From contig NZ_CP029191.1 in the NCBI RefSeq assembly GCF_008642335.1, forward strand, positions 2,170,001 through 2,234,000: a stretch of 64,000 nt of DNA, in the 5' to 3' direction. Every line of letters begins with the position of its first letter. The stretch's first letter is position 1. Below, piece by piece: positions 6,729 to 64,000 of this stretch. The DNA is from Streptomyces venezuelae (GTDB lineage Bacteria; Actinomycetota; Actinomycetes; Streptomycetales; Streptomycetaceae). The notes beneath the pieces are model-generated. The model was not told the origin of the DNA. It searched no databases and was given only the letters and a program-made list of their open reading frames with translations. Made by a program: the position numbers and the translations under genes.

Positions 6729-6773
6729 GGGGCCTCCAGGCAGACGGACTCGAACTCTTCCTGAATACGCCAT

Positions 6774-6952
6774 GGAGGGGACTTCGGGCCAGGTGCGCGG
6801 GGGCAGTGTTGGGCGGCTGATGGGGCAGCGCAGGGGGCGCCGGGTGTGCGCTCACGGGCGACCCGGGGTGCGGACACGCACGCGGTCAGTCCTATATTCA
6901 TACAAACATTTCACGCGTGGCCCTGCCGCGCTGGACACGGGGTGGGACCGCA
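6774..6952. promoter_or_regulatory. Divergent promoter region with AT-rich core
   Basis: Between the DUF4157 and deacetylase genes. An AT-rich stretch around 6891-6912, including TATATT at 6893-6898, stands out from the GC-rich surroundings and can be read as a -10 element on either strand. No palindromic operator seen. Confidence 0.3.
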
Positions 6953-8287
6953 GTGAGCGAACGCGACGGCACCGGACCCGCCCGGGCCGGGTCCCGTACT
7001 GCCCGCAAGGCACGTACCAAGGCGCGGCGGCGCAAGCAGTTGGCCGTGATCGCGGCTGTGATCGGGCTGGGCGGCGTGGCCACCACGGGGGTCATCGCCC
7101 TGGGCGACTCCTCCGGGGACGGGGGCGGCTCCGGGCGCACCGCGTCCGCTTCCTCGGGCAGTGCGGCGCAGAAGGCGCGAGCGGCCAAGCGGGCGAAGAA
7201 GGGGGAGGAGAAGTGGGACGGCAAGGTGCGGGTCCTGGGGGACGGCTCCACCTCGTACGCCGGCCCGCAGCCGGGGCAGCTCAAGCCCAAGAAGCTCAAG
7301 CCCGGTGAGAAACCGCCGCAGTTCGTGGTCTTCTCCTGGGACGGCGCGCTGGAGGGCGACGACCGCCGCTTCTCCCACTTCCGCCAAGTGGCGCGGGAGA
7401 GCAAGGCTCACATGACGTTCTTCCTCACCGGGATCTACCTCCTGCCGGAGAGCAAGAAGTCGCTCTACCGTCCGCCGCAGCACAACGAGGGGGCGGCCGC
7501 CATCTCGTATCCGACCGTCCCGCACATCCAGACCACGCTGGAGCAGCTGCGCGGTGCCTGGAAGGACGGGCACGAGATCGGTTCGCACTTCAACGGGCAC
7601 TTCTGCGGCCCCAAGGGCGGCGGCGACTGGAGTGTCGCGGAGTGGAAGAGCGAGATCGAGCAGACGTACGCGTTCATGAAGGAGTGGAAGACCAACACCG
7701 GGTTCACCGAGGAGAGCCCACTGCCCTTCGACCCGGACCGGGAAGTGGTCGGCGGCCGTGCGCCCTGCCTGGAGGGGCAGAAGAACCTCCTGGCCGCGGC
7801 CGAGCCGTTCGGCTGGCGCTACGACGCGAGTTCGTCGGGCGACTTCCAGATCTGGCCGTCCAAGGCCGGGGGCCTGTGGAATTTCCCGCTGCAGCTCCTG
7901 CCCCTGGAGGGCAAGGAGGTGCAGGTCCTCTCCATGGACTTCAACTTCCTCTATCACCAGTCCGGTGACAGCACCCAGGGCGACCCGGCGAAATTCCCGG
8001 CATGGGAGGCGCAAGTCTCCAGTTCGTACATGAACGGGTTCAACCGCGTCTACAACGGCAGCCGGGCGCCGATGTTCATCGGCAACCACTTCGAGGACTG
8101 GAACGGCGGCATCTACATGAACGCCGTCGAGGACGTGATGCGCAAGGTGTGTCCGCGCAAGGAGGTGCGCTGCGTGTCGTTCCGCGAGTTGGCCGACTGG
8201 CTCGATGTCCAGGACCCGAAGGTCCTGGACCGGCTGCGCCTGCTCGACCCGGCGCAGGCACCGAAGTGGAAGGCGCTCATCAGGTAG
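6953..8287 (+). CDS. Membrane-anchored or secreted polysaccharide-deacetylase-like (NodB fold) protein
   Basis: 444 aa. GTG 6953 chosen because a GGTGGGA ribosome site sits just upstream. A basic N-terminus (about 30 residues) and one hydrophobic segment (LAVIAAVIGLGGVATTGVIA) give an uncleaved signal or anchor, followed by a Ser/Lys-rich linker. The catalytic part shows motif 1 FSWDGA (metal Asp) and motif 2 GHEIGSHFNGH, with the H-x3-H zinc pair. It likely removes acetyl groups from a cell-wall or capsular sugar outside the membrane; it is longer than a minimal NodB domain because of insertions between motifs. It ends facing the PBP gene across a shared hairpin. Confidence 0.78.
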   Translation: MSERDGTGPARAGSRTARKARTKARRRKQLAVIAAVIGLGGVATTGVIALGDSSGDGGGSGRTASASSGSAAQKARAAKRAKKGEEKWDGKVRVLGDGSTSYAGPQPGQLKPKKLKPGEKPPQFVVFSWDGALEGDDRRFSHFRQVARESKAHMTFFLTGIYLLPESKKSLYRPPQHNEGAAAISYPTVPHIQTTLEQLRGAWKDGHEIGSHFNGHFCGPKGGGDWSVAEWKSEIEQTYAFMKEWKTNTGFTEESPLPFDPDREVVGGRAPCLEGQKNLLAAAEPFGWRYDASSSGDFQIWPSKAGGLWNFPLQLLPLEGKEVQVLSMDFNFLYHQSGDSTQGDPAKFPAWEAQVSSSYMNGFNRVYNGSRAPMFIGNHFEDWNGGIYMNAVEDVMRKVCPRKEVRCVSFRELADWLDVQDPKVLDRLRLLDPAQAPKWKALIR

Positions 8288-8292
8288 CGGGA

Positions 8293-8308
8293 CGGGCGGG
8301 GACGCCCG
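8293..8308. terminator. Bidirectional hairpin between convergent genes
   Basis: CGGGCG-GGGA-CGCCCG forms a 6-bp stem with a 4-nt loop in the 30-bp gap between the deacetylase and PBP stop codons. No U-tract, as usual for high-GC actinobacteria. Confidence 0.45.
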
Positions 8309-8317
8309 GCTCAGGCC

Positions 8318-10423
8318 CTAGGTGAGCGCCTTGACGTAGCGGGTCCACAGGTCCACCGCCCGCCGGCTGGCGGGTGTGGTGGGGGCGTCGCCGCCAAGGC
8401 CCTTGAGCGACAGGGGCACCAGGTCCTTGAGCGACATGCGGTAGACGACCACGGCCGTGGTCTCGTCGCGGGTACCTCCCACGAACCAGCCCGCCGTGTT
8501 CGCGGTGGTCGTCCCGGTCTTGCCCACGGCGCCGAGGTGTGCCGCGCCCGCCGCCTTCGCCGACCCGTCGGTCATGGTGGCCCGCAGGGCGTCCGTGACC
8601 GCCCGGGCGGTCTTCTCCGACATCGCCCGCGCTGGTCGCGGTACGGCGAGCGGCACGGCGTCCCCGGCCCGGGTCACCGAGCTGACCGAGTAGGGGTCGG
8701 TGTGCATGCCGTGGGCGGCGAAGGTCTGGTAGGCGCCGGCCATCCGGATGGCGCTGGGCGTCGAGTTCTCCCCGAGCGCGAACACAGGGATACGTTCTCC
8801 CAGGCTGGAGGGGAGCAGCCCCGCCCGCAGGGCGTACTTCTCCACCCGGTCCAGGCCGACGTCGAGGCCGAGTTGGAGCAAGGGTGTGTTCACGGAGTCG
8901 GCGACGGCCCGGCGCAAGGTCACCTCGCCCCAGTCGCGGCCGCCTTCGTTGCGGCCCTTGACCACCTTGCCGCTGCGGTCCCAGTAGGGCCCTTCCGGCG
9001 TCTTCACGGCGATCTTGTCGTCGCCGTCGTAGACGCTGGCCGGGGAGACGGGGGTGCGGCCCCCCTCCCGGGTGCGCTTGACACCGTCCTCGAGCGCGGC
9101 GGCGTAGACGAAGGGGGTGAACGTCGAACCGGCCGGAATCGTGGTCGCGTTGGACTGGTTGAAGCCCTGTTTCAGGAAGTCGCGGCCGCCGTACACGGCG
9201 AGCAGCCGGCCGTCCGGAGCCACGCTCGCCGCGCCGATCTTGGCGTGCTGGTCGGTGTCGGGCCGCCGCTCGGCGTCGAAGTCCTTCTCGGCCCGGTGGA
9301 CGGCGGCGGTCAGGGCCTTGGTGCGTTTGCGGTCGAAGGTCGTGCGGATCTGGTAGCCGCCCAAATCATAGTCTGCGGCGGTGATGTGCCCGGCTTTGAT
9401 CGCGTGCCGCTTGGCCAGCTCCACCAGGTAGCCGGTCCGTGCGCCGGGAATGTCGCCGGAGCCCGACTTCGTGGGTTCGGGGAACTTCTTGTAGGTGGCC
9501 CGCTCGGCCTGGCTGAGGTGGCCGGTCGCCACCATGCGGTCCAGGATCCAGTTCCAGCGGTCGACGGCCCGCTCGCGGTTCTCCTTGCCGAGGGCCGGGT
9601 CGTAGAGTCCGGCGCCTTTGAGGAGAGAGGCCAGGAAGGCGCCTTCGCTGGGGTTGAGGCGCGAGACGTCCTTGCCGTAGTAGGCGTGCGAGGCGCGCTG
9701 GATGCCGTAGGTGCCCCGCCCGAACCAGCTCGTGTTCAGGTAGGCCTGGAAGATCTTGTCCTTGCTCGTGTGGTTGTCCAGCTTCACGGCGAGCAGGGCT
9801 TCGGTGAACTTCCGGGACAGGGTGCGGTCCTGGCTGAGGTAGACGTTCTTCACGTACTGCTGGGTGATGGTCGAGCCGCCCTGGGTCTCTCCCCCGGTGA
9901 TCGCGGCGGTCGCCGCACGCAGGACACCGCTCGGTGAGACACCGGCATCGGAGTAGAAGCTCGCGTTCTCGGCCGCGAGGACGGCGCCCCGGACCTTCGG
10001 CGGCACCCTCTTCAGCGGTATCTCCTGCCTGATGACCCAGCCGGTGCGCGCCATGACGCTGCCGTCGGACCAGTAGTACACGTTGTCCTGTTGTGTGGCG
10101 AAGGAGTTGAGGTCGTCCGGTATGTCTGTGGTGGCGTACGCGATCGTGACGAAGCCGGTCAAGCCGAGCGCAAAGTACAGGAAAGCGCCCAGCCACTGGC
10201 GCCACGAAGGCAGCCACCGGCGCCAACCGCTGCGGCCCGGCCGGGGGTAGGCCGGACGCAGCCGGCGCAGTTGTCCGCGCGCCACGGCGAGGGCGCCGGG
10301 TATGCCACCCGTCGTGGTCCGCTGCCTGGACTTCCTGCGTCGGCCGGTCGCCGCGCGGCGTCCCCCCGGTGCCGCCCGCCGTCTCCCGCCGCCCTGGCCT
10401 GCGGCCATCTTGCGCCCACCCAC
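8318..10423 (-). CDS. Class A penicillin-binding protein (transglycosylase/transpeptidase)
   Basis: 701 aa, GTG 10423 with GAGGAGG 8 nt upstream. A very basic N-terminus of about 75 residues precedes one membrane anchor (FLYFALGLTGFVTIAYA). The GT51 transglycosylase follows with AAENASFYSDAG (catalytic Glu) and GGSTITQQYVKN. The transpeptidase part has SVN and VGKTGTT motifs, but the active-site motif reads S433-T-F-T436 (AGSTFTPFVYAAA) where SxxK is expected, so the general-base lysine is missing. Glycan polymerisation should be intact; cross-linking activity is doubtful. Acts outside the cytoplasmic membrane in peptidoglycan synthesis. No PASTA repeats. Confidence 0.9.
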   Translation of the reverse strand: MGGRKMAAGQGGGRRRAAPGGRRAATGRRRKSRQRTTTGGIPGALAVARGQLRRLRPAYPRPGRSGWRRWLPSWRQWLGAFLYFALGLTGFVTIAYATTDIPDDLNSFATQQDNVYYWSDGSVMARTGWVIRQEIPLKRVPPKVRGAVLAAENASFYSDAGVSPSGVLRAATAAITGGETQGGSTITQQYVKNVYLSQDRTLSRKFTEALLAVKLDNHTSKDKIFQAYLNTSWFGRGTYGIQRASHAYYGKDVSRLNPSEGAFLASLLKGAGLYDPALGKENRERAVDRWNWILDRMVATGHLSQAERATYKKFPEPTKSGSGDIPGARTGYLVELAKRHAIKAGHITAADYDLGGYQIRTTFDRKRTKALTAAVHRAEKDFDAERRPDTDQHAKIGAASVAPDGRLLAVYGGRDFLKQGFNQSNATTIPAGSTFTPFVYAAALEDGVKRTREGGRTPVSPASVYDGDDKIAVKTPEGPYWDRSGKVVKGRNEGGRDWGEVTLRRAVADSVNTPLLQLGLDVGLDRVEKYALRAGLLPSSLGERIPVFALGENSTPSAIRMAGAYQTFAAHGMHTDPYSVSSVTRAGDAVPLAVPRPARAMSEKTARAVTDALRATMTDGSAKAAGAAHLGAVGKTGTTTANTAGWFVGGTRDETTAVVVYRMSLKDLVPLSLKGLGGDAPTTPASRRAVDLWTRYVKALT

Positions 10424-10625
10424 CCCGTATGCCTCCTCTGTTGCGCTCTGGCGCTCACATTAGAGGCAGTTGGAGGCGTACGGCCGGGCCCGTGGGCCCT
10501 GGCTGCCTGGTCCGGGAGCTTCCGGGTTCCGCAAAAGAGGGGGGCAACGGCTCGGGAAGGGCCCGCACTTGTGTCAAGATTCCGTGCCCCTGTCGGGGAG
10601 ATACGGCAACGGAAGAGGAAACGCA

Positions 10626-11783
10626 GTGATATCCATAGCGATACCCAAGAGATACAGATCCGCCGCCATCGCCGGTGTGACCGCGGCCGTGACGTCCGGC
10701 TGCCTGCTCGCGCCCACCGCGCACGCGGACGCCGGTGCCGTGCCCCGCAAGGCCGACCAGCGGACGCTCGCCACCTTCGCCCGCATCGCCGACGATGTCC
10801 TCTCCCGGCGCACCCAGGCCCTGGTGGAGGACCGCGCGGGGCGCGGCGGCCAGGACACCGGAGCGGTGACGCCGCGCATGTCCGGTCGGCTGCGGACGGA
10901 CGAGGACGCCGCGCTGCGGTCGCTGCGCGCCCGCAAGTCGCGCCTCGCCCAGCTCGGCGAGGCCTACACGAAGGCGGACACCCGCGTCGTCGTGGACAGC
11001 GCCACGCTCACCGGCAGCACGGCGACCGTCCAGGTCACCGCGTCGTCGACGCTCACGTACAAGAAGGTGAGCGCGGGCGGGCCGCGCACCACCGCGTTCT
11101 CGACGCGGCAGGAGCTGAAGCTCGCGAACACGAAGGACGGGGGCTGGCAGCTGACCGCGATCACCTCGCGCAACAAGGGTCCTGTCGCGGTCGACGAACC
11201 CTCGGCGGCCCGGACGAACACCGTCGACGACGACGGCAACCAGTACCCGGACGGCACCCCGGCCTCCACCAAGTACCCCACCACGCCGATGCCCTCGGGC
11301 AAGACGACCGGTGCCTACGACTACTCCGCCATGGCGCAGTACGCGGAGAAGTACTGGCGCAGCTACAACCCGGCCTACCGCAAGTTCAACGGCGCCGGCG
11401 GCGACTGCACCAACTTCGTCAGCCAGGCGCTGAAGGCGGGCGGCTGGAAGCCCGTCCCCGGCTCCGCCTACGACTACCGGAACTGGTGGTACGAGAGCGC
11501 GGGCCAGAGCACCTCCTGGGTCGGGGTGAACGAATGGGCATGGTTCACGCTGTCCAACCGGCGGGCCCCGAACCTGGCGAGCGCCTACCAGTTGGACGTC
11601 GGCGACGTCCTGCAGGTGGACTTCGACAAGAACGGGTCCAAGGACCACACCATGCTGGTGACGTACCGCAACAGGCAGGGCATGCCGTACCTGACCTACC
11701 ACTCCACCGACACCTACCGCAGGTCGCTCGCGAGCCTGATCGCGTCCTACCCCGACGCGCGCTACTTCGCGTACCGCACCTGA
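10626..11783 (+). CDS. Secreted amidase-domain (Amidase_6-like) protein
   Basis: 385 aa, GTG 10626 preceded by GAGG 8 nt upstream. A Sec signal (KRYRSAAIAGVTAAVTSG... ending near AHADAG) targets it outside. A helical and beta region of about 190 residues is followed by a putative cysteine-amidase domain: YDYSAMAQYAEKYW, then GGDCTNFVSQALKAGGW (candidate catalytic Cys) and a later DHTMLVTYR His. This matches the Amidase_6 family often seen in secreted actinobacterial proteins; cell-wall peptide or glutamine amide cleavage is plausible but unproven. It has its own promoter region (10424-10625) divergent from the PBP gene. Confidence 0.75.
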   Translation: MISIAIPKRYRSAAIAGVTAAVTSGCLLAPTAHADAGAVPRKADQRTLATFARIADDVLSRRTQALVEDRAGRGGQDTGAVTPRMSGRLRTDEDAALRSLRARKSRLAQLGEAYTKADTRVVVDSATLTGSTATVQVTASSTLTYKKVSAGGPRTTAFSTRQELKLANTKDGGWQLTAITSRNKGPVAVDEPSAARTNTVDDDGNQYPDGTPASTKYPTTPMPSGKTTGAYDYSAMAQYAEKYWRSYNPAYRKFNGAGGDCTNFVSQALKAGGWKPVPGSAYDYRNWWYESAGQSTSWVGVNEWAWFTLSNRRAPNLASAYQLDVGDVLQVDFDKNGSKDHTMLVTYRNRQGMPYLTYHSTDTYRRSLASLIASYPDARYFAYRT

Positions 11784-11796
11784 CGGCGACAGGCTC

Positions 11797-14790
11797 TCAG
11801 GCCCCGTAGAACCGTTCCTCCACCACGGCCCGGGCCCTGCGCGTGATGCGCCGGTAGTCGTCCAGCATCTCGCCGACGTGGCCCGGGTCGTACCCCAGAT
11901 ACCGGGCGACGGCCGCCAGTTCGCGGCCGTCGGAGGGGAACGTGTCGCCGGCCCGGCCGCGCACCAGCATGACCGCGTTGCGGACGCGGGCCGCGAGGAC
12001 CCACGCCTCGTCGAGGGTCGCCGCGTCCTGCGCCGGGATCAGCTCCGCGGCGCAGGCCGCGGCCAGGGCCTCACGGGTCCGGGTCGTGCGCAGTCCCGGT
12101 TCGGCCCAGCCGTGCTCCAGCTGGAGGAGCTGGACGGTCCACTCGACGTCGGAGAGGCCGCCGCGGCCCAGCTTCGCGTTGAGGGTGGGGTCGGCGCCGC
12201 GCGGCATGCGCTCCGCCTCCATGCGGGCCTTGAGGCGGCGGATCTCGCGGATCGCGTCCTCGCCGATACCCTCCGCCGGGTAGCGCAGCGGGTCGACGAG
12301 TTCGATGAAGGCGCGCCCGAGGTCCGCGTCGCCCGCGACCGGTTCGGCCCGCAGCAGCGCCTGGGACTCCCATACGAGGGACCAGCGGCGATAGTACGCC
12401 TCGTACGACCGAAGGGTGCGCACCAGCGGGCCGCTGCGGCCCTCCGGGCGCAGGTCGGCGTCGATGAGCAGCGGCGGGTCCGCGGAGGGCAGTTGCAGGA
12501 GCCTGCGCATCTCGGCGACGACCTTCGCCGCCGCCTTCGACGCTTCCTGTTCGTCGGCGCCCTCGCGCGGCTCGTGCACGAAGAGGACGTCGGCGTCCGA
12601 GCCGTAGCTCAGCTCGTGGCCGCCGAAGCGGCCCATGCCGATGACGGCGAAGCGGGTGGGGAGCGTGTCGCCCCAGCCTTCGCGGACGACGGCGCGCAGC
12701 GTGCCCGCGATGGTGGCTGCCGTCAGGTCCGACACGGCGTCGCCCACACGGTCCACGAGCGTGCCGGGGTCGGCCTCGGCGGGGCTGTCCTCCGTGCCGT
12801 ACGAGCCGATGAGGTCGCCTGCGGCGGTGCGGAACATCTCGCGGCGCCGCACCCCGCGCGCCACGGTCACGGCCTGCTCGGCGCCGTCCGCGCGGCGCAC
12901 CGCGGCCAGTATCTCCTGCTCCAGGTGGGCGCGGCCGCGCGGTTCCAGGCCGCCGGAGTCGCCGAGGATGGCGACGGCCTCGGGGGCGCGCAGCAGCAGG
13001 TCGGGGGCGAGGCGTCCGGCGGAAAGGACGCGGGCGAGGTTCTCCGCGGCGGCGCCCTCGTCCCGCAGCAGCCGCAGGTACCAGGGGGTCTTGCCGAGCG
13101 CGTCGGACACCTTGCGGAAGCCGAGGAGCCCCGCGTCGGGGTCGGCGGAGTCGGCGAACCAGCCGAGGAGTACCGGCAGCAGGGTGCGCTGGATGGCCGC
13201 CTTGCGGGTGACGCCGGAGGCCAGCGCCTCCAGGTGCCTGAGCGCCGCGCTGGGATCCGCGTAGCCGAGCGCCACGAGGCGTTCGCGGGCCGCCTCCAGG
13301 CTCAGCCGCGCCTCGCCGGGGGCGAGTTGCGCGACGGCGTCGAGCAGCGGGCGGTAGAAGAGCTTCTCGTGGAGCCTGCGCACCACGGAGGTGTGCCGTT
13401 TCCAGGCGCGGCCGAGCTCGGTGATCGGCTCGGTGCGCATGCCGAGGGAGCGGCCGATGCGCCGCAGGTCCGCGTCGTCCTCGGGCACGAGGTGGGTGCG
13501 GCGCAGTTTGTAGAGCTGAATGCGGTGTTCGAGGGAGCGCAGGAAGCGGTACGCGTCGTCGAGCTGAGCGGCGTCCACGCGCCCCACGTAGCCGCCCGCA
13601 CCGAGCGCCTGGAGCGCGACGAGCGTCGAGCCGCTGCGCAGCGACCGGTCGCTGCGGCCGTGCACCAGCTGGAGCATCTGCACGGCGAACTCGACGTCGC
13701 GCAGTCCGCCGGGGCCGAGCTTCAGCTCCCGGTCGACCTCGCCCGCCGGGATGTTCTCGACGACCCTGCGCCGCATCTTCTGCACGTCGGGCACGAAGTT
13801 CTCGCGCTCGGCGGCCTGCCAGACGAGCGGGGCGAGCGCGTCGACGTACTCCTCGCCGAGCGCGAGGTCGCCCGCGACCGGGCGGGCCTTGAGCAGCGCC
13901 TGGAACTCCCAGGTCTTGGCCCAGCGCTGGTAGTACGCGAGGTGGCTGGAGAGCGTGCGGACCAGGGGGCCGTTCCTGCCCTCGGGGCGGAGGTTCGCGT
14001 CGACGGGCCAGATGGTGCCCTCGACGTTCGTGTCGGAGCAGATCCGCATCATGTGCGAGGCGAGGCGGGTCGCGGCCCGGATCGCCTTGTCCTCGTCGGT
14101 GCCCTCGGTGGCCTCGCCGACGAAGATGACGTCGACGTCGGACACGTAGTTCAGTTCGTGGCCGCCGCACTTGCCCATCGCGATCACCGCGAGCCTGCAC
14201 TGCGCGGCATCGCCGGGCGCCGCGGCGCGGGCCTGGGCGAGCGCGGCCCGCAGCGTCGCCGTCGCGAGGTCCGCGAGCTCGGCCGCCGCCTCGGCGACGT
14301 CGGTCGTGCCGCACACGTCGCGGGCCGCGATGGAGAGCAGGCAGCGGCGGTAGGCGACGCGCAGCGACTCGGGGTCGGCGGCGTCGGCGAGGCCCCGCTC
14401 GAACTCCGCCACGCCGGGGTGCAGGTCCGCCGATTCGTAGGTGACGAGGGCGCGCCAGTCCAGGGGGTGCCTCGCGAGGTGGTCGGCGAGGGCCTCGGAG
14501 GCGCCGAGCACGCCGAGGAGCCGGTCGCGCAGGGGCTTGGCGGTGACGAGGGTGTCGAGCAGCTCGCGCCGCCCGAGGTCGTCGTCCTGCGCCTCCACGA
14601 GCCGGACCAGGCCGAGAAGGGCCAGGTCGGGGTCGGCGGTGGCGCCGAGCGCGTCCAGGAGCAGCGGGTCGTCGCGCACGGCGCTCAGCGCGGGGTCGTC
14701 GAGGAGCCGTTCCGCGGCGGACGGGTCGGTGAAGCCGTGCCGCAGCAGCCGTGTGAACGTACTGCTTCGTCGCCCTTGCGGCACCGTCAT
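11797..14790 (-). CDS. glnE: Bifunctional glutamine-synthetase adenylyltransferase/deadenylylase
   Basis: 997 aa. ATG 14790 chosen for GGAGG 5 nt upstream; a longer frame exists but starts in the neighbouring promoter. It contains two nucleotidyltransferase domains in tandem: GGHELNYVSDVDVIFV (N-terminal, adenylyl-removing half) and GGHELSYGSDADVLFV (C-terminal, adenylylating half), each followed by DANLRPEGRNGP or DADLRPEGRSGP. It modifies a tyrosine of GlnA-type glutamine synthetase in response to nitrogen state. It belongs to a minus-strand nitrogen block together with glnA2 at 18399-19760. Only 13 bp separate its stop from that of the amidase gene. Confidence 0.96.
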   Translation of the reverse strand: MTVPQGRRSSTFTRLLRHGFTDPSAAERLLDDPALSAVRDDPLLLDALGATADPDLALLGLVRLVEAQDDDLGRRELLDTLVTAKPLRDRLLGVLGASEALADHLARHPLDWRALVTYESADLHPGVAEFERGLADAADPESLRVAYRRCLLSIAARDVCGTTDVAEAAAELADLATATLRAALAQARAAAPGDAAQCRLAVIAMGKCGGHELNYVSDVDVIFVGEATEGTDEDKAIRAATRLASHMMRICSDTNVEGTIWPVDANLRPEGRNGPLVRTLSSHLAYYQRWAKTWEFQALLKARPVAGDLALGEEYVDALAPLVWQAAERENFVPDVQKMRRRVVENIPAGEVDRELKLGPGGLRDVEFAVQMLQLVHGRSDRSLRSGSTLVALQALGAGGYVGRVDAAQLDDAYRFLRSLEHRIQLYKLRRTHLVPEDDADLRRIGRSLGMRTEPITELGRAWKRHTSVVRRLHEKLFYRPLLDAVAQLAPGEARLSLEAARERLVALGYADPSAALRHLEALASGVTRKAAIQRTLLPVLLGWFADSADPDAGLLGFRKVSDALGKTPWYLRLLRDEGAAAENLARVLSAGRLAPDLLLRAPEAVAILGDSGGLEPRGRAHLEQEILAAVRRADGAEQAVTVARGVRRREMFRTAAGDLIGSYGTEDSPAEADPGTLVDRVGDAVSDLTAATIAGTLRAVVREGWGDTLPTRFAVIGMGRFGGHELSYGSDADVLFVHEPREGADEQEASKAAAKVVAEMRRLLQLPSADPPLLIDADLRPEGRSGPLVRTLRSYEAYYRRWSLVWESQALLRAEPVAGDADLGRAFIELVDPLRYPAEGIGEDAIREIRRLKARMEAERMPRGADPTLNAKLGRGGLSDVEWTVQLLQLEHGWAEPGLRTTRTREALAAACAAELIPAQDAATLDEAWVLAARVRNAVMLVRGRAGDTFPSDGRELAAVARYLGYDPGHVGEMLDDYRRITRRARAVVEERFYGA

Positions 14791-51745: not shown

Positions 51746-53032
51746 GTGCCTCTCTCCGCGATACTGCCCGATCTCTCCCCCTGGCGCTCCACCCGCGACT
51801 TCCGGTTGCTGTGGGTGCAGGGGCTCGTCACCACGTTCGGCAGTTTCATGGCCCTGGTCGCCCTGCCGCTCCAGATCAAGGAGCTGACGGACTCACCGGT
51901 CGCGGTCGGCGCGATGGGCGCGGTCGAGCTGGTGCCGCTGATCGTCTTCGGGCTGTACGGCGGGGCGCTCGCCGACGCCGTGGACCGGCGCAAGGTGATC
52001 CTCCTGACCGAGGCGGGCCTCGGCCTCCTCGCCGCCGTCCTCCTGGTGAACGCGCTGCTGCCCGAGCCGCTGCTGTGGCCGCTCTACGTCGTGGCGGCCG
52101 GCGTCTCCGCGCTCGCCGGGCTGCAGCGGCCCGCCCTGGACTCCCTGATGGCGCGGATCGTGCCGCACGACCAGCTGACGGCGGCCGCCGCGCTGAACTC
52201 GCTGCGGTGGAACGTGGGCGCCATCGCCGCGCCGTCCCTCGCGGGCATCGTCGTCGCGTACGCGGGCCACGCCTCGGCGTACGGGATCACGGCCGTCTGC
52301 TTCGTGCTGTCTGTCGCGCTGTGCACCCGCCTCTCCCCCGCGCCCGCCGCGCACGACGCGGAGAAGCCGTCGCTGAAGGGGCTCGCGGAGGGCGCGCGCT
52401 ACGCGTGGTCGCGTCCCGTGCTGCTCGGTACGTACGCGATCGACATGGCGGCGATGTTCTTCGCCTTCCCCAACACGATCTTCCCGTTCCTCGCGGACGA
52501 CCTGGACGCGGAGTGGGCGCTCGGTCTGATGTACGCGGCCGGCGCGGTCGGCTCCCTCGTGTTCAGCCTCACCAGCGGATGGACGTCGCGGGTGCGGCGG
52601 CACGGGCTGCTCGTCGTGTTCGGCGCGGCGGGCTGGGGGCTCGCGATCACCGCGGCGGGCTGGCTCTCCAACATCTGGCTGGTGCTCGTCTGCCTCGCGT
52701 TCGCGGGCGCCGGGGACATGGCGAGCGGGCTCGGGCGCTCCACGATCTGGAACCAGACCATCCCGGACGAGCTGCGCGGGCGGCTCGCCGGGATCGAGGT
52801 CCTGTCGTACAGCGTGGGTCCGCAGCTCGGTCAGGTCCGCGCGGGCACGGCGGCGGGCTGGACCGGCACGCGGCCCGCGATCTGGTCGGGCGGCCTCGCC
52901 TGTCTGGCCTCGGTCGGCATCCTCGCGGCGGTGCTGCCGAAGCTCGTCTCGTACGACGCGACGACGGACCCGGACGCGCGGCGCCGCAGGGAACGGGGCG
53001 ACACCGGGGTTACGGAGCCGGTGGCCCCGTAA
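51746..53032 (+). CDS. MFS exporter (EntS/enterobactin-efflux-like, MFS_3)
   Basis: 428 aa, GTG 51746. About 12 membrane segments; opening RSTRDFRLLWVQGLVTTFGSFM, GALADAVDRRKVILLTEAG and LQRPALDSLMARIVPHDQL are typical of EntS-type MFS_3 proteins, which often export siderophores or peptides. There is no siderophore cluster here, so the cargo is open. The stop codon is followed directly by a Streptomyces intergenic repeat. Confidence 0.87.
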   Translation: MPLSAILPDLSPWRSTRDFRLLWVQGLVTTFGSFMALVALPLQIKELTDSPVAVGAMGAVELVPLIVFGLYGGALADAVDRRKVILLTEAGLGLLAAVLLVNALLPEPLLWPLYVVAAGVSALAGLQRPALDSLMARIVPHDQLTAAAALNSLRWNVGAIAAPSLAGIVVAYAGHASAYGITAVCFVLSVALCTRLSPAPAAHDAEKPSLKGLAEGARYAWSRPVLLGTYAIDMAAMFFAFPNTIFPFLADDLDAEWALGLMYAAGAVGSLVFSLTSGWTSRVRRHGLLVVFGAAGWGLAITAAGWLSNIWLVLVCLAFAGAGDMASGLGRSTIWNQTIPDELRGRLAGIEVLSYSVGPQLGQVRAGTAAGWTGTRPAIWSGGLACLASVGILAAVLPKLVSYDATTDPDARRRRERGDTGVTEPVAP

Positions 53033-53098
53033 GGGGCGCGGGGAACTGCGCGACCAGCCACCCCCGGCCCGCGGAGGCCCACCAGCCCCAGAAACCCC
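53033..53098. repeat. Interspersed repeat of GGGGCGCGGGGAACTGCGCG type
   Basis: Starts right after the MFS stop codon with GGGGCGCGGGGAACTGCGCG and CGACCAGCC. I know this motif as a very common 3'-intergenic repeat of Streptomyces chromosomes. It fills the gap to the convergent small gene and may act as a terminator. Confidence 0.65.
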
Positions 53099-53332
53099 CT
53101 ACGTGTCGCCGTCCCCTCCGCGCCCGGCGCCGTCATGCCACTTGGGATCGTTCTCCCACTCCAGATTCCGCTCCTGAGCGGTCTGCATCGCGTGTTCCGC
53201 CTCCTTGCGGGACGCGTAGGGCCCCATCCGGTCCTTGCCGGGACAGTCGGGACCCTCCTCGACCGTCCCGTGCTCCAGGCAGTAGAACCACTCGCCCGGC
53301 TTGCCGACTGTCCGCTTCTTGAACAGCGCCAT
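53099..53332 (-). CDS. Conserved 77-aa soluble protein with CLEH/CPGK motif
   Basis: ATG 53332 has AAGGAG 6 nt upstream. [39 protein letters not shown], then a helix [19 protein letters not shown] and acidic tail. Cys at two positions plus His may bind zinc. I recall similar short proteins next to map in Streptomyces; function unknown. Confidence 0.78.
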
Positions 53333-54316: not shown

Positions 54317-54345
54317 TTGACTTAGGTAAGCCTAACTTGCATGAT
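54317..54345 (+). promoter_or_regulatory. Iron-box-controlled promoter of haem oxygenase
   Basis: TTGACT (54317-54322) and CATGAT (54340-54345) are spaced 17 bp. Between them lies TTAGGTAAGCCTAA (54322-54335), which matches 14 of 19 positions of the DtxR/DmdR iron box as I remember it (TTAGGTTAGGCTAACCTAA). Repressor with Fe(II) would block the promoter. Confidence 0.7.
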
Positions 54346-54406
54346 CTGCAGAGGGCGCACCGGTTCCCGCCATTCCGTCAGTCCTCGGCTCCCCTGGAGG
54401 CACCGC

Positions 54407-55084
54407 ATGGTCACGCCGCACTCGCCGCTCACGCCCTTCTCGACGGTCATCCGTACCGCGTCCCACGAAGAGCACACCGAGGCGGAGACCTCGTCCTTCA
54501 TGAGCGACCTCCTCGGCGGCAGGCTCGGCGTCGACGCGTACACGCGGTACACGGAGCAGCTGTGGTTCGTCTACCGCGCCCTCGAGGACGGCGCCGAGGC
54601 GCTGCGCGAGGACCCCGTCGCGGGGCCCTTCATACGGCCCGAGCTGGCCCGCGTCGTCGAACTGGAGCGCGACCTCGCGCACCTGCGGGGCGCGGACTGG
54701 CGCACGGGCCTCGCCCCGCTGCCCGCCACGGAGGCGTACGCGGCCCGCGTCGCGGAGTGCGCCCGCACTTGGCCCGGCGGTTACGTCGCCCACCACTACA
54801 CGCGCTACCTGGGCGACCTCTCCGGCGGCCAGATCATCCGCGGCAGGGCCGAGCGCGCGTGGGGCTTCGACCGCAAGGGCGACGGCGTGCGGTTCTACGT
54901 CTTCGAGGGCATCTCCAACCCGGCCGCGTTCAAGCGGGGTTACCGCGAACTGCTCGACGGGATCGACGCGGTGGTCGCGGACGAGCTGGAGAGGAAGCGG
55001 ATGGTCGACGAGTGCAAGTTCGCTTTCGCTTTGAATACGGCGGTGTTCCGTGAGCTGGGGGACGAGTTTCCGCTGAGCGCCTGA
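54407..55084 (+). CDS. Biliverdin-producing haem oxygenase (HmuO-like)
   Basis: 225 aa, ATG 54407 with GGAGG upstream. Opens haem to biliverdin, CO and Fe(II). Proximal haem ligand is most likely His23 in HEEHTEAETSSFMSDLLGG, which aligns with HmuO; the distal-helix motif YLGDLSGGQIIRG (Gly-rich, residues about 146-158) is intact. Soluble and cytoplasmic. Preceded by an iron box, so expressed under iron starvation. Faces the haem-binding operon on the opposite strand. Confidence 0.95.
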   Translation: MVTPHSPLTPFSTVIRTASHEEHTEAETSSFMSDLLGGRLGVDAYTRYTEQLWFVYRALEDGAEALREDPVAGPFIRPELARVVELERDLAHLRGADWRTGLAPLPATEAYAARVAECARTWPGGYVAHHYTRYLGDLSGGQIIRGRAERAWGFDRKGDGVRFYVFEGISNPAAFKRGYRELLDGIDAVVADELERKRMVDECKFAFALNTAVFRELGDEFPLSA

Positions 55085-57392: not shown

Positions 57393-58793
57393 TCAGGAGT
57401 CGTCCGAAGGGGACGCCGACGTGTCGGTCGACGCCCGCCTCTTGCGCACGACCCCGAAGGTGACCGCCGCGGCGAGCAGCACCGCGACGCCCGCGCCGAC
57501 GCCGATGGGCACGGCGTTCGACGAGGAGCCGGCGGAGTCGGCGGTCTTCTCGGTCCTCGGCCGCGCCTGCTTCTCCGCGGCGGGTTCCGGCCGTGCGGAC
57601 GAGCCGAGGTCCGGCAGCGCGGGGAGCTTCGTCTCCGTGTCGAGGGCGACGGCGAGCGACACGGGGTCCATCGCGGAGCCCGCCTTGTACATGCCGCCGA
57701 AGGCCTTGGCGCCCTCGGCGGTGAGCTTCGACGGCACCTCGGCGAGGGCGACGAGGCCGTCCTCCGGCTTCAACTCCTCCTCCGTCGCCGGGAAGGTGAT
57801 GAGTGGGGCGTCCTTCAGGGTCGTGCCGCGGTGGCCCTCGCTGTCGACGTCCGCCGAGAGCGTGCCCCTGCCGTCCTTGACCTCGACGGTGATCCCGGCG
57901 AGCGTCAGGTCGAGGCCGTGGGCGCCGGTGAAGCGCACGGATCCGGCGAAGTCCGCGGCGAGGGTGTGCTTCTTCTCGTCGTACGTGCCCTCGCCCTTCG
58001 GGAAGCGGAAGAGCGCGCCGCCGTCCTGGGCGCCGGCGGACAGCTTCCACTCGCCCTTGGCGATGGGCCCGGTGACGTACTCGCGGAAGGTGCGGCGCAC
58101 GCCCCAGTCGACGGCGGCGTTCTCGATGCGCCCCGCTTCCGGCTCCTTCTCGGCCTTCTCCTTCTCCTCGTCCTTCGCCTTGCCGTCCGAAGGGGCCTTT
58201 GCCGGCGCGGACTTCGCGACGAGGTCCGTCGACAGGCTCACCGGGTCGAGTGCGGTGCCCGCCGGGTAGTACCCGGCGAACGCCTTGGCGCCCTGTGACG
58301 TGAGCGTCGCCGGGAGGTTGTCGAGCGCGATCGGTCCTGTGCCGCCCTTCATGCCGATGCCCGAGACGTCGAGCGCGGCGAGCGGCACCTGCGGGGTCGA
58401 GGTGACCTTGCCGGTGCCCTTCTCCTTGCTGACCATGTCGGCGTAGAGCGTGCCGGTGCCGCGGGAGACCTTCACGGTGGGGCGGCTGATCGTGAGGTCG
58501 AGCTGGTACGAGCCGTCCTTCTTGTGGCCGGTGAAGCGCACCCCGCCCGAGAACCCGGCGCTGAACGTCCCGCTGTCCGGGTCGTACGAGCCCTTGGCCG
58601 AGTGGAAGCGGAACTGGCTGCCGCCGACCGTGGCGGCGCCCCCTCGCAGGGTCGAACCGCCTTGGGCGATGGGGCCGGTGACGTAGCTCTGGAAGGAGGA
58701 CTTGATGCCCCAGTCGAGCCTGCCGCCCCGGACCGTGCGGTCGTCGGCGTGCGCGACGGCCGCCGGGAACAGGGCCGCGGCCTCCCGCGACAT
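57393..58793 (-). CDS. Second HtaA-type haem-binding protein, truncated signal peptide
   Basis: 466 aa if started at ATG 58793. Two HtaA domains: DDRTVRGGRLDWGIKSSFQ onward (about 17-170) and ENAAVDWGVRRTFREYVTG onward (about 215-375). It ends with a membrane segment VPIGVGAGVAVLLAAAVTFG and a basic tail, with no LAxTG motif. Only SREAAALFPAAVAHA remains of the signal peptide, with a 10-residue core; upstream DNA is antisense hmuT coding sequence rather than a promoter. The start has AAGGTGG nearby by chance. First gene of an operon with the next HtaA gene (58 bp) and the PhzF-like gene; expression and export are doubtful after the junction deletion. Confidence 0.82.
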   Translation of the reverse strand: MSREAAALFPAAVAHADDRTVRGGRLDWGIKSSFQSYVTGPIAQGGSTLRGGAATVGGSQFRFHSAKGSYDPDSGTFSAGFSGGVRFTGHKKDGSYQLDLTISRPTVKVSRGTGTLYADMVSKEKGTGKVTSTPQVPLAALDVSGIGMKGGTGPIALDNLPATLTSQGAKAFAGYYPAGTALDPVSLSTDLVAKSAPAKAPSDGKAKDEEKEKAEKEPEAGRIENAAVDWGVRRTFREYVTGPIAKGEWKLSAGAQDGGALFRFPKGEGTYDEKKHTLAADFAGSVRFTGAHGLDLTLAGITVEVKDGRGTLSADVDSEGHRGTTLKDAPLITFPATEEELKPEDGLVALAEVPSKLTAEGAKAFGGMYKAGSAMDPVSLAVALDTETKLPALPDLGSSARPEPAAEKQARPRTEKTADSAGSSSNAVPIGVGAGVAVLLAAAVTFGVVRKRRASTDTSASPSDDS

Positions 58794-59508
58794 CACCGCC
58801 ACCTTCGAGCAGGCGAAGAAGCTGCCCGTGGTGACGCGTGCGCACGACGTCTCGGCGGAGAGCGTGTTCTCGCTCGAACCGACCGTCGTCCTCGCCGACT
58901 CCACCACCGGACCCGCCGAGGCCGTCGACCAGATCCGCGACGCGGGCATCCCCCTCGTCGTGTTCGACCCGGCGAAGGGTCTCGACGACGTGAGTCCGCG
59001 CATCGAGGCGGTGGCGAAGGCCCTGGGCGTCGAGAAGGCGGGCGCCGAGCTGACCGCGCGCACCGAGCGGCGGATCGACGAGGTCCGCGAGGGCATTCCC
59101 GACGGGAACCGGGCGAAGAAGCCGCGGGTCGCCTTCCTCTATCTGCGCGGCACCGCCTCCGTGTATCTCCTCGGCGGCCGTGAGTCCGGGGCGAGTTCGC
59201 TCCTGGAGGCGGCGGGCGCGGTCGACGCGGGCAAGGAGTCCGGGCTGAGGAAGGACTTCACCGCGATCACCAGCGAGGCCCTCGCCAAGGCCGCGCCGGA
59301 CGCGATCCTCGTGATGACGAAGGGCCTGGACTCGGTGGGCGGCGTCGACGGGCTCCTGAAGGTGCCGGGCGTCGCAGAGACCCCCGCGGGCCTGGACCGC
59401 CGTGTCGTCTCCGTCGAGGACGGCGTCCTCCTCAACTACGGGCCACGCACCGACCAGGTCCTGAAGTCCCTGGTGAAGCAGCTGTACGCGGACGGCACCG
59501 CGTCATGA
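58786..59508 (+). pseudogene. hmuT: 5'-truncated haem ABC transporter binding protein
   Basis: 240 residues of a periplasmic haem-binding protein: RDITATFEQAKKLPVVTRAH, SLEPTVVLADSTTGPAEAV, VAFLYLRGTASVYLLGG, ILVMTKGLDSVGGVDGLLKV and LLNYGPRTDQVL. Family members are about 340-360 aa with a lipoprotein signal; here roughly the first 110 residues (signal, Cys anchor, first haem-contact region) are missing. Upstream codons read into the antisense of the HtaA gene without signal peptide or ribosome site. The downstream permease gene overlaps its stop by 4 bp and is intact. Confidence 0.82.
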
Positions 59509-60602
59509 GCCTCCTGACCCGGCCCGGACCCTGGAAGACCGCCCCGGCGGCGCCCGATGCATCCCCTCGGGCCCGCCGTCGCGCCGCCCTCCCCCTGACC
59601 GTCGGCCTCGTCGCCGCCCTCGTCGTCCTGTGCCTGCTCTCGGCCGGCATCGGCGCCTACGACATCCCGCTCGGCGACGTCCTCTCCTCCGTTCGGCACC
59701 GCATGGGGCTCGGCGGGTCCGCGCTCGACCGGGTCGGCGAGAGCGTGCTGTGGAACGTGCGGCTGCCGCGCGTCGTGCTCGCCCTCCTCGTCGGCGCCTC
59801 GCTGGGCTGCGCGGGCGCGCTGATGCAAGGTGTGTTCGGCAACCCGCTCGCCGAACCCGGCGTCATCGGGATCTCGTCGGGCGCCGCCGTCGGCGCCGTC
59901 GCCTCCATCGCGCTCGGCTTCTCCTTCTTCGGCAACTGGACCGTCACCGTCTGCGCGTTCGTCGCCGGGCTCGCGACCGTCCTGCTCGTGTACGCCATGT
60001 CGCGCGAGGGCGGCCGCACGGAAGTCGTCACACTGATCCTCACCGGCATCGCCGTGAACGCCTTCGCGGGCGCCCTCATCGGCCTGTGCGTCTTCTTCGC
60101 GGACAACGCGCAGATCAGCCAGATCACGTTCTGGCAGCTCGGCTCGCTGGCGCAGGCGACGTGGCCGAAGGTCCTCGCCGTGCTGCCGTGTGCGCTGCTC
60201 GGTCTCGCCGTCGCGCCGCTGTACTCCCGGAAGCTGGACCTCCTCGCGCTCGGCGAACGGCCCGCCAGGCACCTGGGCGTGGACGTGGAGCGGCTGCGGC
60301 TCGTCCTCGTCCTCGTGGTGGCGCTGCTGACCGCGGCGGCCGTGTCCGTCGCCGGGATCATCACCTTCGTCGGCCTCCTCGTCCCTCATCTGCTGAGGAT
60401 GGCCGCGGGCCCCGGGCACCGCTTCCTCGTGCCCGGGAGCGCGCTCGGCGGTGCGCTGGTCCTCGTCGCGGCCGATCTGGCCGCGCGCACGGTGGCCGCG
60501 CCCGCCGAGCTGCCGCTCGGGGTGCTGACCGCGCTCTTCGGCAGCCCGTTCTTCTTCTGGCTGCTGCGCAGGACCCGTCGCAGGCAAGGGGGTTGGGCAT
60601 GA
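59505..60602 (+). CDS. hmuU: Haem/iron ABC transporter permease (FecCD family)
   Basis: 365 aa, ATG overlapping hmuT stop (ATGA). About 10 membrane segments, RLPRVVLALLVGASLGCAGALMQ and GNPLAEPGVIGISSGAAVGA are FecCD signatures, and GIITFVGLLVPHLLRMAAGP near the C-terminus is the ATPase-coupling region. Forms the haem channel. Coupled to hmuV by a 4-bp overlap. Its own promoter is not visible; the operon promoter seems lost with the 5' part of hmuT. Confidence 0.92.
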   Translation: MSLLTRPGPWKTAPAAPDASPRARRRAALPLTVGLVAALVVLCLLSAGIGAYDIPLGDVLSSVRHRMGLGGSALDRVGESVLWNVRLPRVVLALLVGASLGCAGALMQGVFGNPLAEPGVIGISSGAAVGAVASIALGFSFFGNWTVTVCAFVAGLATVLLVYAMSREGGRTEVVTLILTGIAVNAFAGALIGLCVFFADNAQISQITFWQLGSLAQATWPKVLAVLPCALLGLAVAPLYSRKLDLLALGERPARHLGVDVERLRLVLVLVVALLTAAAVSVAGIITFVGLLVPHLLRMAAGPGHRFLVPGSALGGALVLVAADLAARTVAAPAELPLGVLTALFGSPFFFWLLRRTRRRQGGWA

Positions 60603-61516
60603 ACGGGCAGGTGGGCATGGTCGGGCAGGTGGGCATGATCGGGCAACTGGGCAGGAGGCTCTTCGCGGGCCGTGACCGGGAGCTGCCCGCGCGGGCCGCC
60701 CCGGGTGACGTCCTCGCCGAGGCCGAGGGGCTGAGGGTGCGGCTCGGCGGGCGCGAGGTGCTGGGCGGGGAGCCGGCCGGGGCTCGCGGCGGGGTGTCGC
60801 TCGCCGTCCGGGCGGGCGAGGTGCTCGCCCTCGTCGGGCCCAACGGTGCGGGAAAGTCGACCCTGTTGGCCGCGCTCGCCGCCGACCTGCCGCCCGCCGC
60901 AGGGGTCGTACGCGTCTGTGGCAGGCCCGCTGACGACTGGCCCGCCCCCGACCTCGCGCTGCGCAGGGCCGTGCTGCCGCAGTCCGCCGCGCTGTCCTTC
61001 CCCTTTCCCGTCGAGGACGTCGTCCGCATGGGCCGCGCGCCCTGGGCCGGGACCCGCGCCGCGGACGACGACGACCGGATCGTGCGCGAGGCGATGGCGG
61101 CGACCGAGGTGACGGAGTTCGCCGCGCGCCCCTTCTCCGCGCTCAGCGGCGGCGAGCGGGCGCGGGTCGCGCTGGCCCGCGTCCTCGCCCAGCGCGCCCC
61201 GCTGCTGCTACTCGACGAGCCGACCGCCGCCCTCGACCTGCGCCATCAGGAGCTGGTCCTGCGGATCTGCCGGGACCGGGCGGCGGCCGGCGACGCGGTC
61301 GTCGTGGTCCTGCACGACCTGGGGCTCGCGGCGGCGTACGCGGACCGGGTCGCGGTGCTGCGGGGCGGGACCGTCGCGGCGGAGGGCGCCCCCGGCGACG
61401 TATTCGGGGAAGCACTGCTCTCCGAGGTGTACCGGCAGCCCGTCGAGGTCTTCCCGCACCCGCGCACCGGCGCCCCCGTGGTGGCGCCGCTGCGGGGGCC
61501 GCACACCTCCGCTTGA
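60599..61516 (+). CDS. hmuV: Haem ABC transporter ATPase
   Basis: 305 aa, ATG 60599 overlapping the permease stop. Walker A GPNGAGKSTLLAALA near residue 81, Q-loop LPQSAALSFPF, signature FSALSGGERARVALARVL, Walker B LLLLDEPTAALDL, H-loop VVVLHDLGLA. The N-terminus starts with a DNA-level tandem repeat (GQVGMV/GQVGMI/GQLG) that gives three possible Met starts, each after a GGGCAGGTGGGC-type run. The ordinary ATPase begins near residue 38. Confidence 0.92.
   Translation: MNGQVGMVGQVGMIGQLGRRLFAGRDRELPARAAPGDVLAEAEGLRVRLGGREVLGGEPAGARGGVSLAVRAGEVLALVGPNGAGKSTLLAALAADLPPAAGVVRVCGRPADDWPAPDLALRRAVLPQSAALSFPFPVEDVVRMGRAPWAGTRAADDDDRIVREAMAATEVTEFAARPFSALSGGERARVALARVLAQRAPLLLLDEPTAALDLRHQELVLRICRDRAAAGDAVVVVLHDLGLAAAYADRVAVLRGGTVAAEGAPGDVFGEALLSEVYRQPVEVFPHPRTGAPVVAPLRGPHTSA
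60605..60655 (+). repeat. 18-bp tandem repeat in the hmuV N-terminus
   Basis: GGGCAGGTGGGCATGGTC at 60605 and a near-identical unit at 60623, then a partial unit from 60641. In frame, encoding GQVGMV, GQVGMI and GQLGRR. Confidence 0.85.
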
Positions 61517-61639: not shown

Positions 61640-61702
61640 TAGGTCCGCCTCGCCCGCCTGTGGCGGGGCCGGCGCCCGCCGTGAACCGTCTTGGAGCCAC
61701 CT

Positions 61703-62878
61703 ATGCGACCCGTGCGACCCGCCCGTGTCCCCGTCGTCACCGCCGTCGTCGCCGCGGCCGCCCTGACCGCCGTCACCGGCTGCACGGAGAAGAGCGACGC
61801 CAAGGGCGGCGGGGCGAACAGCGTCAGCGTGACCGCGTCCGACGACAAGTGCGAGGTCTCCAAGAAGGAGCTCTCCGCCGGACACGTCGAGCTGGCCATC
61901 GAGAACAAGGGCTCCAAGGTCACCGAGGTCTACCTCCTCTTCCCCGACGACCGCATCGTCAGCGAGCGCGAGAACATCGGCCCCGGCACCAAGCAGAAGC
62001 TCACCGCCGAGGTGAAGGCGGGCTCGTACGAGATCGCCTGCAAGCCGGGCATGAAGGGCGACGGCATCCGCCAGAAGGTCACCGTCACCGGCGGCGGCAA
62101 GACCGCGAAGCGCGACCCGCGCCTGGACAAGGCCGTCGCCGAGTACCGCGCCTACGCGCAGGCACAGGCCGACCAGACGCTGCCCGCGACGAAGACCTTC
62201 ACGGACGCCGTGCGCAAGGGCGACCTGGACGCGGCGAAGAAGGCGTACGCCACCTCCCGCATCGGCTGGGAGCGCACCGAGCCCGTCGCCGAGTCCTTCG
62301 GCGACATCGACCCGAAGGTCGACGTGCGCGAGGACGGGCTCGAAGAGGGCCAGGACCTGGAGAAGGACTGGACGGGCTGGCACCGTCTGGAGCGCGCGCT
62401 GTGGAAGGACAAGAAGATCGGCAAGCGCGAGAAGGCGCTCGCCACGCAGCTCGACAAGGACCTCCTGGACTGGCAGAAGCGGGTCGGCAAGGCCGTCATC
62501 ACGCCGACCTCGATGGCCAACGGCGCCAAGGAGCTCCTCGACGAGGTCGCCACCGGCAAGGTCACCGGCGAGGAGGAGCGCTACTCGCACACCGACCTCG
62601 TCGACTTCAAGGCCAACGTCGAGGGCGCCCAGAAGTCGTACGAGCTCCTGAAGCCGGTCGCCGCCGAGAACGACCCGGCCCTCACCAAAGAGCTCGACAA
62701 GCAGTTCGCGGCTCTGGACAAGCTCCTGGAGAAGCACCGCGAGGGCGGCGCGGGGTCCTACGCGTTCACCTCGTACGACAAGGTCGGCAAGGCGGACCGC
62801 AAGGAGCTGCACGACGGCGTCAACGCGCTGGCCGAGCCGCTGTCCAAGCTCGCCGCCGCCGTCGCCAAGTCCAAGTAG
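61703..62878 (+). CDS. efeO: Iron uptake lipoprotein EfeO (cupredoxin plus M75 domain)
   Basis: 391 aa. ATG 61703 has GGAG 7 nt upstream. Lipoprotein signal VVAAAALTAVTGC. N-terminal cupredoxin-like domain (CEVSKKELSAGHVELAIENKG split by strands; ACKPGMKGDGI with Cys/Met), then the helical M75 peptidase-like domain with the conserved iron-site motif TGWHRLERALW (HxxE). Binds Fe(III)/Fe(II) or copper outside the membrane for the EfeUOB system. Followed after 16 bp by efeB. No efeU permease gene is visible; it may lie beyond the window. Confidence 0.94.
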   Translation: MRPVRPARVPVVTAVVAAAALTAVTGCTEKSDAKGGGANSVSVTASDDKCEVSKKELSAGHVELAIENKGSKVTEVYLLFPDDRIVSERENIGPGTKQKLTAEVKAGSYEIACKPGMKGDGIRQKVTVTGGGKTAKRDPRLDKAVAEYRAYAQAQADQTLPATKTFTDAVRKGDLDAAKKAYATSRIGWERTEPVAESFGDIDPKVDVREDGLEEGQDLEKDWTGWHRLERALWKDKKIGKREKALATQLDKDLLDWQKRVGKAVITPTSMANGAKELLDEVATGKVTGEEERYSHTDLVDFKANVEGAQKSYELLKPVAAENDPALTKELDKQFAALDKLLEKHREGGAGSYAFTSYDKVGKADRKELHDGVNALAEPLSKLAAAVAKSK

Positions 62879-62894: not shown

Positions 62895-64000
62895 ATGGCT
62901 GAGTCCACCACCACGAGGCGTTCCGTGCTCGGCTGGGGCGGCGCCGGGCTGGCGCTCGGCGCGGCCGCGGCGGGCGGCGCCGTGGCGATGGCCCGCTCCG
63001 GCGACGACGTGGCGCCCGCCGCCGAGCCGGGGGCGGCCGTCGCCTTCCACGGCGCGCACCAGGCCGGCATCGCCACCGCCGTCCAGGACCGGCTGCACTT
63101 CGCGGCGTTCGACGTGAAGACGGCGGACCGGGAGGAGTTCGTGCAGCTCCTCAAGGACTGGACGCGGGCGGCGGCGCGGATGACCGCGGGCCACGCGGTC
63201 GGCGAGGGCGCGTACGGCGGGCTCGCCGAGGCGCCGCCGGACGACACCGGCGAGGCGCTCGGCCTCAGGCCGTCCCGGCTCACCCTGACGATCGGCTTCG
63301 GCCCGTCCCTGTTCGACAAGTTCGGGCTCGCCGACCGCCGCCCCGAGGCACTCGTCGACCTGCCGAAATTCCCCGGCGACAACCTCGACAAGGGCCGCAG
63401 CGGCGGCGACCTGTGCGTGCAGGCCTGCGCGGACGACCCGCAGGTCGCGGTGCACGCGATCCGCAACCTCGCCCGCATCGGCTTCGGCAAGGTGGCGGTG
63501 CGCTGGTCCCAGCTGGGCTTCGGCAAGACGTCGTCGACGACGCCGGACGCGCAGACGCCGCGCAACATGATGGGCTTCAAGGACGGCACGCGGAACATCT
63601 CCGGCACCGACGCCGCCGCGCTCGACCGGCACGTGTGGGTCGGCCCGAAGGACGGCACGGACTGGATGACGGGCGGCTCCTACCTGGTCGCCCGCCGCAT
63701 CCGCATGAACATCGAGACGTGGGACCGGACCTCGCTGCAGGAGCAGGAGGACGTCTTCGGCCGCGACAAGGGCGAGGGCGCGCCGGTCGGCAGGGCCAAG
63801 GAGCGGGACGAGCCGTTCCTCAAGGCGATGAAGCCGGACGCGCACGTCCGCCTCGCCCACCCCGACACCAATGGCGGGGCGACGATCCTGCGCCGCGGCT
63901 ACTCCTTCACGGACGGCACCGACGGCCTCGGCCGCCTGGACGCGGGCCTGTTCTTCCTCGCGTACCAGCGGGACGTCCGCAAGGGCTTCATCCCGGTGCA
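62895..64000 (+). CDS. efeB: Deferrochelatase/peroxidase EfeB (DyP-type), C-terminus cut by window edge
   Basis: At least 368 residues. ATG 62895 after AAGGGGGAA. Tat signal TTTRRSVLGWGGAGLALG. DyP-type haem peroxidase: MGFKDGTRN (GxxDG catalytic Asp), proximal His in VRLAHPDTN, distal Arg in ATILRRGYSFTDG and the end FFLAYQRDVRKGFIPVQ, so only the last 30-40 residues are outside. Works with EfeO in ferrous iron oxidation/uptake and is proposed to release iron from haem, which would suit this locus where haem import seems damaged. Confidence 0.95.
   Translation, partial: MAESTTTRRSVLGWGGAGLALGAAAAGGAVAMARSGDDVAPAAEPGAAVAFHGAHQAGIATAVQDRLHFAAFDVKTADREEFVQLLKDWTRAAARMTAGHAVGEGAYGGLAEAPPDDTGEALGLRPSRLTLTIGFGPSLFDKFGLADRRPEALVDLPKFPGDNLDKGRSGGDLCVQACADDPQVAVHAIRNLARIGFGKVAVRWSQLGFGKTSSTTPDAQTPRNMMGFKDGTRNISGTDAAALDRHVWVGPKDGTDWMTGGSYLVARRIRMNIETWDRTSLQEQEDVFGRDKGEGAPVGRAKERDEPFLKAMKPDAHVRLAHPDTNGGATILRRGYSFTDGTDGLGRLDAGLFFLAYQRDVRKGFIPV

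Follow-up and report, generated by a model that had tools for sequence, protein, structure and literature searches.

A probable recent deletion of the divergent htaA/hmuT control region in a Streptomyces haem-uptake locus

The window analyzed here, 64,000 nucleotides in length, spans positions 2170001-2234000 of a single 8,048,154-bp contig whose relatives are Streptomyces; this one-contig genome has a completeness of 100 and a contamination of 0.22. It contains a haem-uptake locus in the order haem oxygenase (+), a PhzF-like gene (−), two htaA genes (−), a remnant of hmuT, hmuU and hmuV (+), the EfeO gene (+), and a Dyp-type peroxidase gene (+) (Table 1). Four HtaA domains were detected in the genome, two in each htaA gene at the locus and none outside. 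The permease and ATPase genes are intact.

Table 1. Features of the haem-uptake locus, in window coordinates.
Feature	Position	Strand	State or match
Haem oxygenase gene	54341..55084	+	Retained; candidate start codon
Second htaA	55814..57334	−	Two HtaA domains; open, with its own start and a signal-like N-terminus
Truncated htaA	57393..58782	−	Two HtaA domains (PF04213); lacks the start and about 22 signal-region codons
Join	58782..58784		Last base of left flank, unmatched T (58783), first base of right flank
hmuT remnant	58784..59508	+	Peripla_BP_2 (profile positions 39-230 of 235); lacks 100 codons, including signal and lipobox
hmuU	59505..60602	+	FecCD-type permease, open; FecCD match
hmuV	60599..61516	+	ABC-transporter ATPase, open; read from 60599, candidate start codon; ABC_tran match
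EfeO gene	61691..62878	+	Retained
Dyp-type peroxidase gene (EfeB-like)	62895..63998	+	Open up to the window end

The truncated htaA and hmuT genes meet at 58782|58784. The left flank ends in ...GGGCCGCGGCC and the right flank starts with CCCGCGACATC, with the lone T between them. On the minus strand, the sequence at the join runs into the HtaA signal region (AAALFPAAVAHADDRTV), placing the cut within the htaA signal peptide. On the plus strand, the sequence past the join is the continuation of HmuT (RDITATFEQAKK), cut at about codon 101. Each truncated frame is also open across the antisense of the other gene (57393-59096 on the minus strand and 58702-59508 on the plus strand), and automatic annotation may therefore produce a 567-aa HtaA and a 268-aa HmuT, each with a false N-terminus.

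The comparison covered the loci of 80 relatives, the best of 213 that were confirmed. All 80 have both flanks in the same order and on the same strand, separated by 390-738 bp (median 540), versus 1 bp here. This gap measures 505 bp in the nearest relative, S. atriruber NRRL B-24165 (L007), whose DNA is 93% and 95% identical to the window on the two sides of the join, and 478 bp in Streptomyces sp. WAC 01529 (L004). A colinear comparison found the same break, with 3 bp versus 480 bp in one relative (G132) and 11 bp versus 474 bp in another (G286). Elsewhere in the window, these two relatives hold about 1.36 kb at 53030-53131 with an ORF for a 361-aa protein, secreted and lectin-like as judged by eye, which is wholly absent here. 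They also carry about 6.1 kb with four ORFs that is absent at 1706-1816, and they lack about 6.3 kb present here at 5516-11800.

Using L007 as the yardstick, the missing stretch comprises the htaA start with its first ~22 codons, a spacer containing TTAGGTAAGGCTAACCTAA, and hmuT codons 1-100 plus one base, including an LTGC lipobox. In the relatives, both genes start within the corresponding stretch, which also encodes the HmuT lipoprotein signal and contains an iron-box-like site. Such predicted sites, which differ from an iron-box consensus at no more than 4 of 19 positions, occur in the gaps of all 80 relatives and in 0/80 shuffled gaps. Across the whole window, the single site with at most 5 mismatches lies at 54322-54340, before the haem oxygenase gene (4 of 19 mismatches), and the scan found none near the join; a stricter iron-box pattern gave no match. 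An automatic rule detected the lipobox in 68 of the 80 relatives. Five of the 12 misses were read: L015, L018, L052, and L075 have LTGC and were missed because they failed the start-codon part of the rule, and L044 has a diverged ATDC. A preliminary description of this DNA had proposed that one event took the divergent junction and with it the N-terminal part of HmuT, including its lipoprotein signal, a portion of the HtaA signal, and the regulatory region that the two genes share, leaving the haem oxygenase, EfeO, EfeB-like peroxidase, permease, and ATPase genes. Relative to all 80 loci, the difference is indeed a single clean deletion, and the frames of the genes expected to be spared are still open. 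The loss from HmuT also stands, with its size corrected from about 110 residues to the 100 codons plus one base given by L007.

The junction was then sought across 392 genomes of the genus. A query spanning the join matched 170 of them at E ≤ 1e-30, and among the matches listed, none but the window's own spans the join, located at query positions 143/145. Most of the listed right-hand matches start at positions 145-150 and about seven at 125-140, while the three listed left-hand matches end at 133, 141, and 143. With the HmuT remnant as a protein query, 175 of the 392 genomes were matched at E ≤ 1e-60. Among the matches listed, HmuT open frames shorter than 340 aa are confined to the window's genome (273) and to G370, G174, and G191, where the matches all begin at most 250 bases from a contig start.

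The missing stretch was not found elsewhere in the genome, as the L004 stretch returned only the flank and weak matches from this one contig. The best unlinked match, one of 40 weak matches listed (G000:C1:5498220-5498376, E 2.5e-5), was rejected as a displaced copy because it covers the start of a different gene, with a lipoprotein-like N-terminus and a sortase-like appearance by eye. Full-length HmuT from L004 recovered the remnant at 79% identity, followed by partial matches of 29% (at 7715084) and 24% (at 6822777). No second close HmuT was thus found in the genome; the two partial matches may mark a distant haem-binding protein. The preliminary description had allowed that relatives might all share the short junction and keep another hmuT elsewhere, a situation found in none of the 80 and matched by no second HmuT above 29% identity here.

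The edges of the join offer some indication of how it may have arisen. In each of the 80 relatives, we compared the continuation of the left side with the window's right flank, and the sequence preceding the right side with the window's left flank. The shared sequence was 0 and 0 bp in 79 relatives and 1 and 0 bp in the remaining one. The microhomology deletion suggested earlier from a GGCCGCG/GCCGCGG similarity is therefore abandoned, as that similarity does not bridge the edges. Within 25 bp of the L007 edges, no direct repeat of at least 6 bp was found, and a 7-bp inverted repeat close to them was dismissed as a probable chance occurrence. The base following the left flank is A in 76 relatives, G in three, and C in one, and that preceding the right flank is G in all 80, compared with T in the window. 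Because relatives with no more than 95% DNA identity here stand in for the lost sequence of this strain, an old substitution could explain the T, and the edge could be misplaced by about one base.

These features fit an origin by end joining. A double-strand break within the divergent htaA/hmuT region would have been followed by end trimming that removed about 500 bp, after which blunt non-homologous end joining would have sealed the ends with a single additional T. Above the cut-off, the genome encodes two Ku, three LigD polymerase, and four ATP-ligase domains. According to PMC5869714, induced breaks in S. ambofaciens yield deletions of 191-23,591 bp. Microhomology of 1-6 nt was present in 50% of the scars and added nucleotides in 40%, some additions being a single non-templated base on blunt ends. 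The proposed event would resemble those central-chromosome scars in its size, in what may be an extra base on an apparently blunt join, and in the presence of Ku and LigD-type genes. In contrast to the induced scars, it would be a natural or culture event deduced from relatives and has no microhomology; as half of the S. ambofaciens scars show microhomology, its absence here is compatible but not typical.

Regarding function, the remnant of hmuT retains His (58843-58845), Tyr (59140-59142), and Arg (59146-59148), which align, by positions counted by hand, with His141, Tyr240, and Arg242, given as the haem ligands of Corynebacterium glutamicum HmuT in the abstract of PMC4926363. A complete exported, lipid-anchored HmuT is absent, given the 100 missing codons with signal and lipobox and no close second copy. 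With neither an export signal nor a lipid anchor, and with the beginning of the N-lobe missing, the remnant should not work as a surface binding protein. In the first htaA, the start and about 22 codons are gone. The second retains a start and a signal-like N-terminus of its own and has lost its presumed promoter; 58 bp separate its start from the end of the truncated gene, and both are probably in the same transcript. Judging from the relatives, the promoters of both operons should be gone, and with hmuU and hmuV downstream of a lost promoter and the second htaA so close to the first, both operons should be silent. A sigma-70 scan found no site; shuffled sequences are expected to give none either, so the scan says little about a promoter. 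The htaA-htaA and hmuTUV operons would accordingly have lost promoter and iron control, and htaA and hmuT also their starts and export signals. Haem would be neither captured nor imported via the locus, and the haem oxygenase, EfeO, and EfeB-like peroxidase would be kept. The strain probably cannot import haem through these two operons.

From the sequence comparisons, we consider it likely that a single recent deletion of about 500 bp stripped a standard Streptomyces haem-uptake locus of its entire divergent control region and of the 5′ ends of both genes; this may have happened in nature or in culture. It is unlikely, though not negligibly so, that the chromosome has the usual divergent region and that an assembly or consensus error dropped it. 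Such an error would account for a junction seen in 0/80 relatives, for the open state of all remaining frames, and for a hmuT remnant with no excess of nonsynonymous changes (12.5 synonymous and 8.5 nonsynonymous in the window lineage, 18 and 9 in that of relative G120; Fisher p 0.76 after rounding). Repeat collapse, however, would need an edge repeat able to collapse, which is lacking, and the unmatched base at the join and the completeness, contamination, and one-contig state of the genome also argue against an assembly error. From an 80-kb region of G286, 53 ORFs were kept by a composition filter, and 31 of these match the window over at least 85% of their length in one piece with no frame breaks, which speaks against an assembly that is faulty throughout but leaves room for a local fault. 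The filter kept at least one antisense ORF (o43), counted among the 31. The 22 unmatched ORFs include 14 outside the window span (o0-o5 and o45-o52) and five whole genes absent here (o7-o10 and o36); the others are o16, not conserved in G132 either, o20, and hmuT, the sole clear truncation among the 53. The apparent truncation of o20 was dismissed, as the ORF is overlong in the relative and the window has the matching start MSRRTLLRS.

Open frames and the lack of amino-acid-change excess in hmuT point to a young event, one that arose in culture, or an assembly error, and sustained purifying selection across everything that remains is as compatible with a very young event as with an assembly error. 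We regard an old deletion in the lineage, with the genes decaying slowly, as very improbable. In its favor, dN/dS between the window and G120 is 0.265 for the hmuT remnant and 0.582 for htaA, above the 0.18-0.21 and 0.39-0.44 of other pairs (hmuT: 0.181 and 0.207 for the window versus G132 and G286, 0.199-0.211 among the three relatives; htaA: 0.40-0.41 versus G132 and G286, 0.39-0.44 among the others), and the second htaA has 29.3 nonsynonymous and 14.7 synonymous changes in the window lineage versus 13 and 12 in G120. The lineage counts nevertheless show no significant difference between the window and G120 for hmuT, htaA (Fisher p 0.54 after rounding), or the second htaA (p 0.31 after rounding), and no remnant contains a stop or frameshift. 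With no significant signal, relaxed constraint was discarded as a clock. Equally hard to credit is a locus rewired to work, with htaA beginning at an ATG within the hmuT antisense and hmuUV fed by another binding protein, for which it would be selected, or transcribed from elsewhere. The join does set an in-frame ATG (58793, minus strand) with an upstream GAAGG before the htaA remnant, giving a possible new N-terminus, MSREAAALFPAAVAHADD; on this reading, GAAGG would be the ribosome site and MSREAAALFPAAVAHA a minimal signal peptide. The dN/dS of hmuU and hmuV (0.14-0.20) would also agree with continued use. On the other side, no iron-box-like site lies by the join, no second close HmuT was found, and no relative has the junction; with no promoter or iron box near 58793, a chance ATG with a very short signal-like stretch has little weight.

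A recent deletion of the divergent region, as favored here, would amount to an ordinary loss of function rather than to a novel type of system. PMC12161575 describes S. coelicolor SCO2267-SCO2277 as a co-expressed, uncharacterised group of hmuO, htaA, hmuTUV, and efeOBU homologues with three predicted DmdR1 sites. The present locus has matching families (haem oxygenase, two HtaA, HmuTUV, EfeO, and Dyp peroxidase) and keeps a predicted iron-box-like site before the haem oxygenase gene, but it lacks the divergent htaA/hmuT region along with the 5′ ends of both genes. It likewise shares HtaA domains with the Corynebacterium htaA-hmuTUV system, and the HmuT of an intact relative matches C. glutamicum HmuT (5az3) at E 2e-49; unlike that system, the HmuT remnant here could not be exported or anchored, and the locus is likely inactive. 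Among the titles and opening lines of abstracts searched, which included a report on rhizobial haem uptake (PMC10881299), no description of the loss of this locus in Streptomyces was found.

If real, the deletion would be a natural knock-out of both arms of Streptomyces haem uptake, made in one step and too young for decay. It would also serve as a natural case of a small end-joining deletion. In this context, the strain would offer a simple test of whether haem serves soil Streptomyces as an iron source.
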